Assembly (NCBI GenBank): GCA_963169875.1
Contig: CAUJEL010000207.1
Span: 1 to 37,660 of the forward strand
Length of the DNA stretch: 37,660 bases
Origin: Candidatus Zhuqueibacterota bacterium
GTDB taxonomy: Bacteria; Zhuqueibacterota; Zhuqueibacteria; Residuimicrobiales; Residuimicrobiaceae
Direction of reading: 5' to 3'
This document shows, piece after piece, positions 24,555 to 29,812 of this stretch. Positions within the stretch are counted from its first letter, which is position 1, and each line of letters opens with the position of its first letter. Below the pieces are notes generated by a model. That model was not told the DNA's origin and ran no database searches. It saw only the letters and a list, made by a program, of their open reading frames with translations. The translations under genes were made by a program, and so were the position numbers.

Positions 24555-25269
24555 ACATAACTCCTGCACTTGTTCTTTTCATCTTGATAAAAATGGCGGC
24601 GCCAGCAGTTCTGGATCACCTCCGGAGCCGGGATGGTTACAGCCGTTTAATTAGTGATAATAACCGACTCGAATCTCCCAGCTATTCCAGTTTGAGAAGA
24701 GGGATGATGATACCGATGCAATTTATGGCAGGCGGATGTTTTAATGTGTTATCGGGGTTTCAAGTTGGAGCGGGATCTGAATGGATGCAATCAAGGTATC
24801 ATCTTGCACCGATACATCTGCTCGCAGAGTTCGAGCTGAGAGGCTTTGGGGCGGAGTTCTCTCGGTGGTGTGCCTGTTGGCATTTCGTTATTATGCGGGT
24901 TTTGCGGACGGAAGGCAGGCGCGCTGACGGAGCGGCTAAACAAACTATCCACGAGGACACACCTTCTTCCCTGTTTGATACGTGCAGAGATTCTTCCAGA
25001 CGTGCAGTCCATTTGCATTGAATTGGCTGGTTCATGAACAATACCCGGATTCTGTGCTAACTTGCCGGCAGCGATTGCAGGCCCGCAATTCATGGGTAAA
25101 TTGAATCAGGATTGCGCCGATCGAAGACACCGGATCAGGATAATAAAAGAGGCTCCCCCTGGCCTCATCCCCGCAGGAAATGATCTCTCAAAATTCTTAG
25201 AGTTGATAAAATAAATCTTGAATTATATGCAAATATTTTTAATTTAAGGTTTCAAGATAGGAATTGAGG
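24555..25269. other. long intergenic region between divergent genes
   Basis: Seven hundred bases separate the minus-strand secreted protein from the plus-strand sigma factor. Open frames exist (for example 24584-25021 on plus) but have no ribosome site or familiar motif. The segment 25044-25139 is one copy of a diverged repeat also found at 30176-30270. The last 80 bases are AT-rich and should hold the sigma-factor promoter; I see no consensus housekeeping box, which would fit control by an alternative sigma factor. Confidence 0.5.
25044..25139. repeat. diverged dispersed repeat, copy 1
   Basis: The segment starts CCCGGATTCTG and ends ACACCGGATCAGG. It shares with 30176-30270 the order CCCGGATTCT, TAACTT, TCATGGG, GAATCAGG and ACCGGATCAGG, at similar spacing and in the same orientation. 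It is non-coding in both places. Confidence 0.6.
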
Positions 25270-25830
25270 ATGGATAACAGTGCGGCAAGAGAGCTGATCG
25301 CTGCCATCATGAGGGGCGATTCTGAAGCTGAAAAATTATTCTTCGATGGATTCCGTCACGAACTCTTCTTTTTCATAAAGATGAGAATCGGCATGGGCAA
25401 TCCGGATGTAATGGATATTGCGCAGGATATTTTTATCGATGTATTCAGACGGATTCGCGCCGGGGAATATGATCATCGCAAAGGCTCTGCGGGCGCTTTT
25501 GTCATCACCACGGCCAAATTCAAGATAATGGATTATCTGAAAAGCCGGCATCATCGCAGCCATGCCTTGAAGAGCGAACTAATCGAGGAAAACATCCCAA
25601 ATCCGCAAGCACAGCCCATCGACCGCCTCATCAACGCGGAGGAGATACAGGCTTTTGCGAACATGCTCGACCGCCTGCCGCAGCCGCACCGGACTATTCT
25701 CATCAGATACTTTTATGACGGATTAAAAATACATGAAATCGCAGCGGAATTGGGATTGGATGAACAGCGAGTCAGCAATTACAAGAGCTATGCCCTGACG
25801 TTGATGAAAAAACTTATCCAAAATGTTTAG
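25270..25830 (+). CDS. ECF-type sigma-70 family RNA polymerase sigma factor
   Basis: I start at ATG 25270; the frame also opens at a TTG two codons earlier. TAGGA stands about 8 bases upstream. The 186-residue product has region 2 at about 23-95 (DVMDIAQDIFIDVFRRIRAG, TAKFKIMDYLKSRHH) and region 4 at about 125-182 (LDRLPQPHRTILIRYFYDGL, IHEIAAELGLDEQRVSNYKS), with no region 3. It is thus a small, extracytoplasmic-function-type factor, probably one that transcribes a narrow regulon, including perhaps its own operon. Next, 57 bases downstream, comes a membrane anti-sigma-like protein, the usual partner. The CHAT protease that converges on this pair may be part of the same pathway (inference). 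Confidence 0.92.
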   Translation: MDNSAARELIAAIMRGDSEAEKLFFDGFRHELFFFIKMRIGMGNPDVMDIAQDIFIDVFRRIRAGEYDHRKGSAGAFVITTAKFKIMDYLKSRHHRSHALKSELIEENIPNPQAQPIDRLINAEEIQAFANMLDRLPQPHRTILIRYFYDGLKIHEIAAELGLDEQRVSNYKSYALTLMKKLIQNV

Positions 25831-25887
25831 ATTTCTTCTGTAAACTCTAAGTATAGGTAGTACAGCCGACACAAAAATGAGGCGTCA

Positions 25888-26553
25888 TTGTACTTTTTCA
25901 TCCTTAAAAAACTGTTCAACAGAACTGACTATATGATTGATCGCTATCTTGATGGCAGCATGTCGGAAGCCGAACGGGAACGATTCGAGCAGCAGTACTT
26001 TGAGAATCGAGCGCTTTTCGATAAATTGCAGAAAAGAAGTGCACTGCGGCAACAACTCACAGGCATGTTGAAGCAGTGCGAGGATACGGTGCTCCACCCA
26101 CAAGACGGGCGGGAGGTAAGGACGCGTCACGGCTGGATCGATAATCCGGGAGGCCGCAGAAAGCTCGGCTGGGCCGGCGCGGCCCTGGCGACGCTGGGCC
26201 TTTTTCTGCTCATTTTCATCGTTCGGCCCGAGGATGAGGGCTCCTTCGCGGTCAATCGGGTGCTCGAAAAAGAGCTGGGCGTCCGCATTCTTCGCTCACA
26301 GACCGTCTCTGTACTTGCGCCCACCCTGTCGCAAAAAGTCTCCGGCACGATCACATTTGCCTGGGATAAGGGCCCCAAACCGCCCTTTGAGGTTGTCCTC
26401 ATCGACCATGCAGGAAACGAGGTCGCTTCCTGGCAGACCGATCAATACACGCTGCACCGTACCCTGGACTATCCGCCGGGCCTCTATTACTGGAAATTGC
26501 TCAGCCAGGAGGAATGGATCTATACCGGGAAATTTATCCATGCAAAACCTTGA
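25888..26553 (+). CDS. single-pass membrane anti-sigma factor-like protein
   Basis: The 221-residue frame starts at TTG 25888 with GAGG five bases upstream. An ATG at 25933 (residue 16) has no ribosome site but overlaps the stop of a 19-codon ORF (25877-25936) as ATGA, so leader-coupled initiation is possible. Residues 16-60 (MIDRYLDGSMSEAERERFEQ...) match the helical N-terminal sigma-binding segment of many anti-sigma proteins. There is no HxxxCxxC zinc motif, so it is not a redox-sensing ZAS protein. One membrane helix is at about 93-112, and the C-terminal 105 residues form a beta-rich periplasmic domain (SGTITFAWDKGP, PGLYYWKLLS) similar to FN3-like sensor domains. It should hold the neighbouring sigma factor inactive at the membrane until an envelope signal or proteolysis releases it. 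Confidence 0.82.
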   Translation: MYFFILKKLFNRTDYMIDRYLDGSMSEAERERFEQQYFENRALFDKLQKRSALRQQLTGMLKQCEDTVLHPQDGREVRTRHGWIDNPGGRRKLGWAGAALATLGLFLLIFIVRPEDEGSFAVNRVLEKELGVRILRSQTVSVLAPTLSQKVSGTITFAWDKGPKPPFEVVLIDHAGNEVASWQTDQYTLHRTLDYPPGLYYWKLLSQEEWIYTGKFIHAKP

Positions 26554-26566
26554 GGGACTCCTCATC

Positions 26567-26593
26567 CCCTGGGAATTGATGATAAACCCAGGG
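26567..26593 (+). terminator. candidate terminator of the sigma/anti-sigma operon
   Basis: CCCTGGG (26567-26573) pairs with CCCAGGG (26587-26593), 13 bases past the stop codon region, followed by CTCCCTTTTG. The right arm lies within the first unit of the tandem array. Confidence 0.5.
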
Positions 26594-27037
26594 CTCCCTT
26601 TTGTATAGCAAACCTGGGGACGCGATCAACGGATTAATCACCATGCCTGCCTGAATGAACCCAGGGCCCTCTCTTTTTAAAACAAGCTTGTGGACGCCAT
26701 CAATGGAGTATTCAACAGGCGTCACTGAATGAACCCATGGCCCCATTGTTACAGCATCCTGGTGGACGCGATCAATGGAGTCGTCACCGGGCATACCTGA
26801 ATGAACCCCTGGCCCCATTGTTACACCAAGCGGGTGGAGGCAATCAATGGAGTCATAACCTGGTATACCTGATAAACCCATGCCCCCTTTTTTTTACAGC
26901 AAGCTGGTGGAGGCAATCAATGGAGTCATAACCTGGCATACCTGATAAACCCATGCCCCATTTTTTTTACAGCAAGCCTGTGGACGCCATCAATGGAGTC
27001 ATCACCGGGCATACCTGAACGAACCCATGGCCCCATT
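26581..27037. repeat. tandem array of six 72-74 bp units plus a partial unit
   Basis: Units: 26581-26652, 26653-26726, 26727-26798, 26799-26870, 26871-26943, 26944-27016, and a 21-base partial 27017-27037. Each begins GA(A/T)(T/A)(G/A)AACCC and carries GTGGA(C/G)GC-ATCAATGGAGTC then CC(G/T)GG(C/T)ATACCT. Units become more alike towards the right: units 3-6 are closely similar while units 1-2 are diverged. Units of 72, 73 and 74 break any reading frame, so the array is non-coding. It fills exactly the gap between the converging stops of the anti-sigma gene (26553) and the CHAT gene (27038), so it lies in the 3' region of both transcripts. Confidence 0.9.
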
Positions 27038-29812
27038 CTACTCGCCATAGAGCACAAATCCACTCCACAAAGCCGGACTGGCATTCTGATTCGATTGAAT
27101 GAACTTGCATTTTGCCTGCCGCAGCGCCTCTTTGTAGTTTTTCGCAGTAAACGTATTTTCATAGAAATCGATCATGAGTTCGGCTGCCGCCTGGTCCTGC
27201 ACTTTCCACAGGGAGGCTATGACGTTGCGCGCGCCGGCATGGAGAAAGCACCGCGTCAGACTCATCAGCCCTTCGCCCTTGAGAATCTGGCCTACGCCGC
27301 TTTCGCAGCTGCTGAGGACGACCAGATCGGCGTCGAGGTTGAGACCGTAGATATCGCCGGCGAATAAAATGACGTCGTCCTGATTTCTGGCTTGCGCGCC
27401 ATGGAAGGCGATGCCGGAAAGTTGCGGCTGCTCCGGATTGACAAAGCTGTGCGTCGCGAGATGGATGACGCGTGCGCTATTGCATTCCTGCATAAAGCGT
27501 GCTTTGGAAGCCTGTTTCCCCTGACAGGAGGCGCCGCTGCGTTGATGTTTTTGAAACGTGGATACGATTTGACGGACCTCATGGGCGGAGGATGGCAATC
27601 TGCTAAAGCCATCCCCGGACCGGGTGATCCAGGATGGATATTTATTTTCGCTGTCGATAAATTGCGCGAACAAATCCGCGGCGTTTAATTTGAATCCCGG
27701 CTTGTCGCTGAACGGCGCATAGGCAAGCAGGTCATGGCGATTAACGGATGCACGCTGTCTTTTATCTGAGACAGCGCCTTGATAAATGCGCGAAGAGTAG
27801 TGATAGGAGATGTTGTGCTTCTCCACCAGATAGACCCGTCCGGCGTCCGCGACCTTGTTCATTTGCGGCAAAGAGGCATCTGTTGAACCGTCCGCTAGAA
27901 GCGCTTCATAGGCGACGCTGTAGAGAACGTCATGGGGGAGAATGACCAGATTCTCCCTGCCGGCGATCGCACCATGCACCGGTGCAATCAGCGTCTCATA
28001 GAGCAATCGGCTGCTGTTGAGGAAGAGGACCTCGCGGTCGCCCTTGATGGCCCGGCAGAAGGTGTGGATCTGTTCTCGCATTTCCGGGGTGAAGCTTTTG
28101 CGGACCACCTGGTGGCCATCTGCGTTGATGGCAAATATGTAGAGTGTGCTGTCGGCAATATAGTACTCGAGCAAAGCGCTTTTTTCATCCAGACTTTTGC
28201 CCAACTCTGCCATGGAGATGTCGCTGGGCGCATATTTGTGCCGGTAATAGTGCGGGTATTTCTTTTCCAGATCCCTGATCATCTGTTGATACTCGGAAGC
28301 GCAGGCATAATAGCTGGCTTGCAGCGTCAGACAGGTGCTGTCATCCGGTTGTGCGCCCTGTTCCATCTGCAGGTCGAGGTCGGTGATGGCCCGGGCGAGG
28401 CGGGCATTGAGTTCTCTTTCGCGTTCAAGCGTGGCTTCATCAATCCCGGATAATTTTCTCGTCTGCAAATCACGCAGCGCCAGAGCCAGCGCCGCGGACT
28501 TGCTTTGCTGCACGAAGCGAAAGGCCAATTCCTCATTGCGGTTTTTATCCATCAGGTCTGCTAATTCCAGCGCGACACCTGTCGCTTGCTGAAGGATCTG
28601 ATCGGCGCGTTCGCTGAGGATTTGCCGGGAGCGTTCCCGTCCGATTTGCAAATCGCGGCGCATGGAATCGAGCACCGCGGCGGCGATCGAAAACATGTCC
28701 AGGGATGCCTGCAGCTCCATGGCGGCATTTTTATTCGTGTGAGCGAGCCGGTGATGCGTTTTGGCCTTGATCTCGATCGCCTGCAGAAATTCTTGACTGA
28801 TGGGCCAGCTGGCTTGCCGCGGCGACCATCCGGCTTTGAGCTGCGGCGCCGGTTTGAAAGATTCCAGCGATTTATTGATAAATTCGAGGCTTCGCGGATA
28901 TTCCTGTCTGGCATAATAAAGGTCGGCGATGGCATTGTTGATGCTGCGATACATGAACGGCAGCGGTATATTAAGTTTTTGGTGAACGGCAGCCGACTTT
29001 TGGTACCAGAGAATGGCGTTGGCATGGTCCCCCATTTTTTTATAGACATCGGCAAGGTAATGGCACGAGTTGGCGAAATAGATGTTCTCACCATAAAGGG
29101 TTGCGATCATCGTCCGGGTGCGATTATGATATTCTACGGACTTTTCATATTCTCCTTTCATGCCGTACATTTCAGCGATATTGTTCAGGGGAGCGACCAG
29201 CTTTTCGTGGCAATCACCGTAAAGTGCGGTGAGAATATCATAGGCGGTTTTATAGTACTGCAGCGCTTTATCCCAATCGGACACCATGCCGTGGCAGTTG
29301 CCCAGGCCGAGATAGAGGTTGGCGGTAAAGGCGTGATTTTTGCCGACGGTCTCAATCGCGAGCGCCAGGGCGCGCTGGATATTGTCGAGAGCGCCGCCGA
29401 AATCCTGTTTGCGGCCGTACAGGACTGCCAGATTATGGTACGATTTTGCCACCATAATTTTATCGGGTTGAGGCTGGGCGAGACGAATGGCGAGCGCCTT
29501 GCGGAAGCAGCTGTCCGCTTTGGCGGGTTGATCGAAGCAGATTTCAGTCCAGCCGACGCTGTCGAGGCTCTCCGCCACTTTGAGATGATCCGGGCCGAAC
29601 AGGTTTTGGCGGATGGCCAGGGCTTGCCGCGCATGCAGCTGTGCGGTTTTAAAATCGCCAGTGCTGAAACTGGCGTGCGCCTTTTTTTGTTCCTCATCGG
29701 CCAGCAGGGTGTCGCTGCGAGTCGCAGTGGGGTTCGGCCGGCTTGTCTGGCTGATCAGCAAACCCGGCAGATAGAGAAGGAGGAGGAAGATTAGGGCCAT
29801 TCGCAACTTCAT
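27038..29812 (-). CDS. secreted TPR-CHAT caspase-like cysteine protease
   Basis: The 924-residue protein has a signal peptide (1-21, LLLLYLPGLLISQ). About seven tetratricopeptide repeats at 30-330 carry ALAIRQNLFG, YHNLAVLYGRKQDFGGALDN, LNNIAEMYGMKGEYEKSVEY and YLADVYKKMGDHANAI. A helical linker at about 340-560 has strong coiled-coil character around 400-520. A CHAT domain (about 640-924) holds the catalytic dyad: His788 in VIHLATHSF and Cys836 in LVVLSSCESGVG, followed by GEGLMSLTRCFLHAGARNVI and SLWKVQDQA. CHAT domains belong to the caspase/separase clan; TPR-CHAT proteins act in programmed proteolysis and type III-E CRISPR (Csx29). With a signal peptide this one should work in the periplasm or outside. 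It converges on the sigma/anti-sigma pair. A weak promoter TTTCAA-N17-TATATT lies at 29914-29886. Confidence 0.93.
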   Translation of the reverse strand: MKLRMALIFLLLLYLPGLLISQTSRPNPTATRSDTLLADEEQKKAHASFSTGDFKTAQLHARQALAIRQNLFGPDHLKVAESLDSVGWTEICFDQPAKADSCFRKALAIRLAQPQPDKIMVAKSYHNLAVLYGRKQDFGGALDNIQRALALAIETVGKNHAFTANLYLGLGNCHGMVSDWDKALQYYKTAYDILTALYGDCHEKLVAPLNNIAEMYGMKGEYEKSVEYHNRTRTMIATLYGENIYFANSCHYLADVYKKMGDHANAILWYQKSAAVHQKLNIPLPFMYRSINNAIADLYYARQEYPRSLEFINKSLESFKPAPQLKAGWSPRQASWPISQEFLQAIEIKAKTHHRLAHTNKNAAMELQASLDMFSIAAAVLDSMRRDLQIGRERSRQILSERADQILQQATGVALELADLMDKNRNEELAFRFVQQSKSAALALALRDLQTRKLSGIDEATLERERELNARLARAITDLDLQMEQGAQPDDSTCLTLQASYYACASEYQQMIRDLEKKYPHYYRHKYAPSDISMAELGKSLDEKSALLEYYIADSTLYIFAINADGHQVVRKSFTPEMREQIHTFCRAIKGDREVLFLNSSRLLYETLIAPVHGAIAGRENLVILPHDVLYSVAYEALLADGSTDASLPQMNKVADAGRVYLVEKHNISYHYSSRIYQGAVSDKRQRASVNRHDLLAYAPFSDKPGFKLNAADLFAQFIDSENKYPSWITRSGDGFSRLPSSAHEVRQIVSTFQKHQRSGASCQGKQASKARFMQECNSARVIHLATHSFVNPEQPQLSGIAFHGAQARNQDDVILFAGDIYGLNLDADLVVLSSCESGVGQILKGEGLMSLTRCFLHAGARNVIASLWKVQDQAAAELMIDFYENTFTAKNYKEALRQAKCKFIQSNQNASPALWSGFVLYGE

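Follow-up and report, generated by a model that had tools for sequence, protein, structure and literature searches.

The window analysed here, a stretch of 37,660 nucleotides from a Candidatus Zhuqueibacterota bacterium, contains two converging genes whose stop codons (26551-26553 for an anti-sigma gene on the + strand, 27038-27040 for a CHAT gene) lie 484 bp apart, and the gap between them is filled by a non-coding tandem array, as the original prediction had it. This raises the question of whether the array serves either of the genes or is an ordinary repeat in a place that tolerates it. The features of the junction are the following:

25264-25830, + strand: ECF-type sigma factor gene (Pfam Sigma70_r2 and r4; NCBIfam sigma70-ECF, 72.8 bits, cutoff 42.9)
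25888-26553, + strand: putative anti-sigma gene, placed after the sigma gene and with the array on its downstream side
26554-26584: unique spacer of 31 bp, comparable in size to the whole gap of relatives (-14 to 41 bp)
26585-27037: tandem array of six units of 71-74 bp and a 16-bp partial unit
27038-29812, - strand: TPR-CHAT protease-like gene (Pfam CHAT, 201.6 bits, and TPR_12), whose stop codon, TAG, abuts the array

Architecture of the array and ends of the flanking genes

Tandem Repeats Finder (TRF), applied to the window, places the array at 26585-27037 with a period of 73, 6.2 copies, 79% matches, 5% indels and a score of 447, against a best score of 54 when the whole window was dinucleotide-shuffled 50 times. 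When the units are cut at AACCC, they start at 26585, 26658, 26732, 26804, 26875, 26948 and 27022 and measure, in this order, 73, 74, 72, 71, 73 and 74 bases, followed by a partial seventh unit of 16 bases that runs up to the last base before the CHAT stop codon, which is where it had been predicted to end. The expected six copies are thus present, whereas the expected unit length of 72-74 bp has to be widened to 71-74 bp because of the measured lengths. The distance of 27 bases first given between the anti-sigma stop and the array depends on the choice of cut, and amounts to 31 bases with the AACCC cut. The 31-bp spacer itself was considered as a decayed further unit, and this was rejected, as 902 of 2000 shuffles score equally high.

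The array thus consists of head-to-tail units longer than about 10-20 bp, repeated above chance and confined to a single locus, neither dispersed nor mobile, which are the properties of a minisatellite. The unit is present at one locus only in the source genome (G000, a draft of 215 contigs), without a match at E<=0.001 in the other 81 genomes of the phylum, and is absent from the same-genus genome G005; the off-locus matches listed by a loose search (E<=10, 82 genomes) are short and weak, the best covering 26 bases at E 0.0018. It therefore survives the check for scattered copies on which the original prediction depended. Bacterial minisatellites and VNTRs in general (PMC2884548) likewise sit in gene gaps as single-locus tandem arrays with units of more than 20 bp; a 90% identity threshold is used there, and the copies in the array, at 65-89%, lie below it.

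Both flanking genes end where their relatives end. The putative anti-sigma protein has no Pfam match at E<=0.001 and matches zf-HC2 below cutoff (E 0.0074); matches to zf-HC2 at E<=1 are found in eight of nine aligned members of its family, the window's included. These nine proteins share a C-terminal YYW...G-F block and end close together. The CHAT protein aligns with nine others over the HLATHS and SSCESG motifs and the C-terminus, and the stop positions of all 10 proteins agree to within two residues. Since the C-termini of both proteins are conserved, the array has altered neither gene, and since both genes end at conserved positions, it constitutes extra DNA in a spacer that would otherwise be close to zero. 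Separately, catalytic-type His and Cys motifs are carried by all 10 aligned CHAT proteins.

The same junction in related genomes

The anti-sigma protein was searched for in 82 genomes of the phylum and matched in 16 of them; the 20 places listed correspond to 19 distinct loci (L056 and L064 are pieces of one gene), all of which were examined, with one genome per species in the comparison. A converging CHAT gene is present at eight of the 19, namely the window (L009), L011, L012, L013, L014, L053, L056 and L057; none was seen converging at L010, L015, L016, L054, L055 and L058-L063 within about 1.5 kb on each side, some of these loci being cut by contig ends. Five of the seven relatives have stop-to-stop gaps of 13 (L011), 33 (L012), -14 (L013), 41 (L053) and 12 bp (L057), a spacer too small for a terminator. 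The other two have a long gap without an array: 816 bp in L014, where an MBL-fold gene is located (metallo-beta-lactamase core domain of NCBIfam, 56.8 bits, below the cutoff of 100), and 613 bp in L056, including an open frame of 134 codons. The junction of the relatives is thus either almost empty or occupied by other inserted DNA. In G005, the homologous anti-sigma and CHAT genes lie on different contigs, and TRF finds no array on the contig with the CHAT gene.

As an observation in its own right, the ECF sigma factor, putative zf-HC2 anti-sigma and TPR-CHAT protease form a tail-to-tail module that is recurrent in the phylum (25264-29812 in the window; 8 of 19 loci), the stops of which lie within about 40 bp of each other in five of seven relatives. 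The source genome carries a second such set (L015/L047 3810-9166, G000:C137), arranged head to head instead of tail to tail, and at a related locus (L050 9229-9445, G017:C121), another 72-bp tandem array, distinct from that of the window and with 3.0 copies at 95%, is situated immediately upstream of the sigma gene. The module recalls Craspase, in which a sigma-factor inhibitor is the substrate of the TPR-CHAT protease Csx29 (PMC10028731); by analogy, the module may represent a protease/anti-sigma switch that is free of CRISPR.

Copy history, comparable arrays and the favoured explanation

The units on the CHAT side are more alike, as predicted: units 3 to 6 (u3-u6) are 79-89% identical among themselves, against 65-78% between them and u1 or u2, and u1 and u2 are 75% identical to each other. 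The closest pair of blocks, identical at 68 of 73 positions, is formed by the second half of u4 with the first half of u5, and the second half of u5 with the first half of u6:

26841-26985 (approximate): the pair of 73-bp blocks with the highest mutual identity, offset from the AACCC borders

The closest-matching duplication is therefore internal and not at the CHAT end, so that the proposed growth of the array from that end holds for the similarity of the units and not for the site of this duplication. Because the most similar blocks span u4/u5 and u5/u6, duplication borders must have fallen inside the unit. In the first half-unit, u5 is nearest to u6 (34/38 identical), and in the second, u4 is nearest to u5 (34/35) and u3 to u6 (33/36). 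Such a change of nearest neighbour between the two halves of the unit describes a mosaic copy history, which is the expectation from repeated duplication.

Sequence comparison reveals no clear origin of the array in either of the neighbouring genes: against the 3' 600 bp of the anti-sigma and CHAT genes, it gives weak + strand matches, and 9 and 12 of 200 mononucleotide shuffles do as well, a weak result for a comparison made with two genes on two strands. In the same-genus genome (L018), the spacer beyond the CHAT gene also matches weakly, at a score attained by 25 of 300 shuffles.

Tandem arrays are common elsewhere in the source genome. A survey of 63 stretches of G000 (995,103 bases; TRF period >=30, length >=100) yielded 14 arrays, among which that of the window has the most copies and the second lowest match (79%). 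It shows similarity to no other place in the sampled 995 kb. Three of the surveyed arrays (L080 5912-6273, L121 11161-11455 and L135 15753-16121) are similar to 4-8 other places each, so that some arrays in G000 are built from dispersed repeats, and the L090 array resembles coding TPR repeats. The same process is visible at the other convergent pair of the survey (L133 7603-7765, G000:C153), where a 76-bp tandem duplication takes in the stop codon of a gene together with the codons just before it, which shows how such arrays can start.

Among the matches listed from the open-access literature, no title concerns an array between convergent bacterial genes. A very close published precedent is the rnc-fpg1 MIRU-VNTR of M. 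tuberculosis (PMC2734929), where a gap of 1-54 bp in other mycobacteria is replaced in the complex by 279-358 bp of repeats that start 40 bp past one stop and finish at the following gene's border codon. As in the window, direct repeats fill a gap that is near zero in relatives. The rnc and fpg1 genes are co-directional, the main repeat there is 37 bp long and strain variation has been observed, whereas the genes of the window converge and its copy count comes from one genome. Repeat length at rnc-fpg1 correlates with expression of the downstream fpg1 gene (PMC2734929), and thus an effect of the window's array on expression is possible in principle. In the window, however, it is the 3' ends of both genes that face the array, and hardly any spacer is present in five relatives.

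In light of these findings, we consider it likely that the array is a single-locus, VNTR-like minisatellite, ordinary and mostly neutral, at a gene junction that tolerates it. The short spacer separating the anti-sigma and CHAT genes would have undergone tandem duplication of a segment of about 73 bp; replication slippage or unequal recombination, its breakpoints falling within the unit, would then have raised the number of copies, which would since have diverged to 65-89% identity. Lying outside both coding sequences, the junction tolerates additional DNA, and the array would be at most a passive spacer that widens the distance between the two 3' ends by about 450 bp. Both the mechanism of duplication and the near-neutrality of the array are what we infer from this pattern. 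Weak selection for length is possible, since this array has the most copies of the 14 and has persisted despite a divergence that suggests age.

Functional readings of the array and its significance

An unlikely alternative, although the next most probable after the minisatellite, is that selection maintains the array as a spacer or collision zone, which the two converging transcripts would enter and where its length or weak sites in each unit would stop transcription or separate polymerases and overlapping 3' ends. Its position within both 3' regions fits this notion, two unit junctions carry weak 5-bp hairpins that are followed by T8 tracts, and a hairpin is present at its anti-sigma edge:

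26567-26593, + strand: perfect 7-bp stem with a 13-nt loop (CTCCCTTTTG), a possible weak terminator of the anti-sigma transcript with a poor T tract

This stem straddles the first unit border and folds at -12.4 kcal/mol (z -1.25); as background, 7-bp stems occur in 47 of 1000 shuffles and in 33 of 470 80-mers of the window. Nevertheless, the hairpins at the unit junctions are no stabler than those of shuffles (mean z +0.20 on the + strand and +0.32 on the - strand, any loop allowed), and a scan for terminator-like sites, covering loops of up to 8, found none. Five relatives cope with almost no spacer, and arrays are not enriched in convergent gaps. The 12 arrays of the survey that could be placed comprise 2 in convergent, 1 in divergent and 9 in co-directional context, against 111, 112 and 485 of 708 background gene pairs, with gene calls that are crude longest-ORF calls (one such ORF in the window, a spurious one, extended over 66% of the array).

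The suggestion that the array acts as structured RNA was not sustained by any of the folds. The whole spacer has no excess structure on either strand (z +1.97 and -0.43), the aligned units give an unfavourable covariation term on both strands, and Rfam has no match at gathering scores in the window, which assigns the array to no structured-RNA family. A series of intrinsic terminators, with a stable hairpin and a T tract in each unit, was likewise considered and rejected, the junction folds not exceeding shuffles and covariation lending no support. As for the idea that the array took the place of an ordinary terminator, the spacers of -14 to 41 bp at five related loci leave little or no room for one, and the 7-bp terminator-like hairpin is still present at the edge of the array; from these comparisons, the array probably replaced no terminator.

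Somewhat less likely again is a selected buffer between the sigma/anti-sigma operon and the convergent protease gene, in which copy number would tune mutual interference. In such a case, the array would keep apart two transcripts whose tails would overlap without it, as must happen in relatives.

It is very unlikely that the array is a tandem set of sites bound by a protein, whether the sigma factor or some other regulator. The copies are regularly spaced, and the stretch around GGACGC-ATCAATGGA appears better kept than the remainder of the unit, as far as six copies, too few for a test, can indicate. However, the complete unit has no second site in the genome, the array lies downstream of the genes it would control, and related sigma/CHAT loci are without it. 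The conserved sigma-factor binding array originally envisaged is thus unsupported, because those loci retain the sigma factor and have no array.

An assembly artefact is harder still to credit: the genome is a draft in 215 contigs, but the copies differ mutually at 11-35% of positions, and the longest exact repeat within the array is 31 bases, a length spanned by ordinary reads, which makes an assembly error unlikely. Identical copies may have been collapsed during assembly.

MIRUs are mini-ORF units that are dispersed over many loci in the mycobacterial genome. The array resembles them in unit length, in its tandem copies in a gene gap and in the stop beside a start in its consensus, and differs from them in being at one locus, rather than many, with most frames broken. 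A series of MIRU-like mini-ORFs, made of 72-bp units running from ATG to TGA with the TGA directly followed by ATG, is the least credible reading of all, as only u3 and u4 hold intact 23-codon frames (picked by eye from the translations), the other units are frame-shifted by indels or lack a start, and the variable columns show no codon phase (10/9/6, 19 columns each), which also agrees with the earlier view that no selection for protein is visible.

The minisatellite thus offers a clean natural case in which a convergent junction with virtually no spacer gains several hundred bases harmlessly to both genes. If its copy number varies between strains, the array would provide a typing marker for the lineage, and a natural test of the effect of spacer length on the expression of converging genes.
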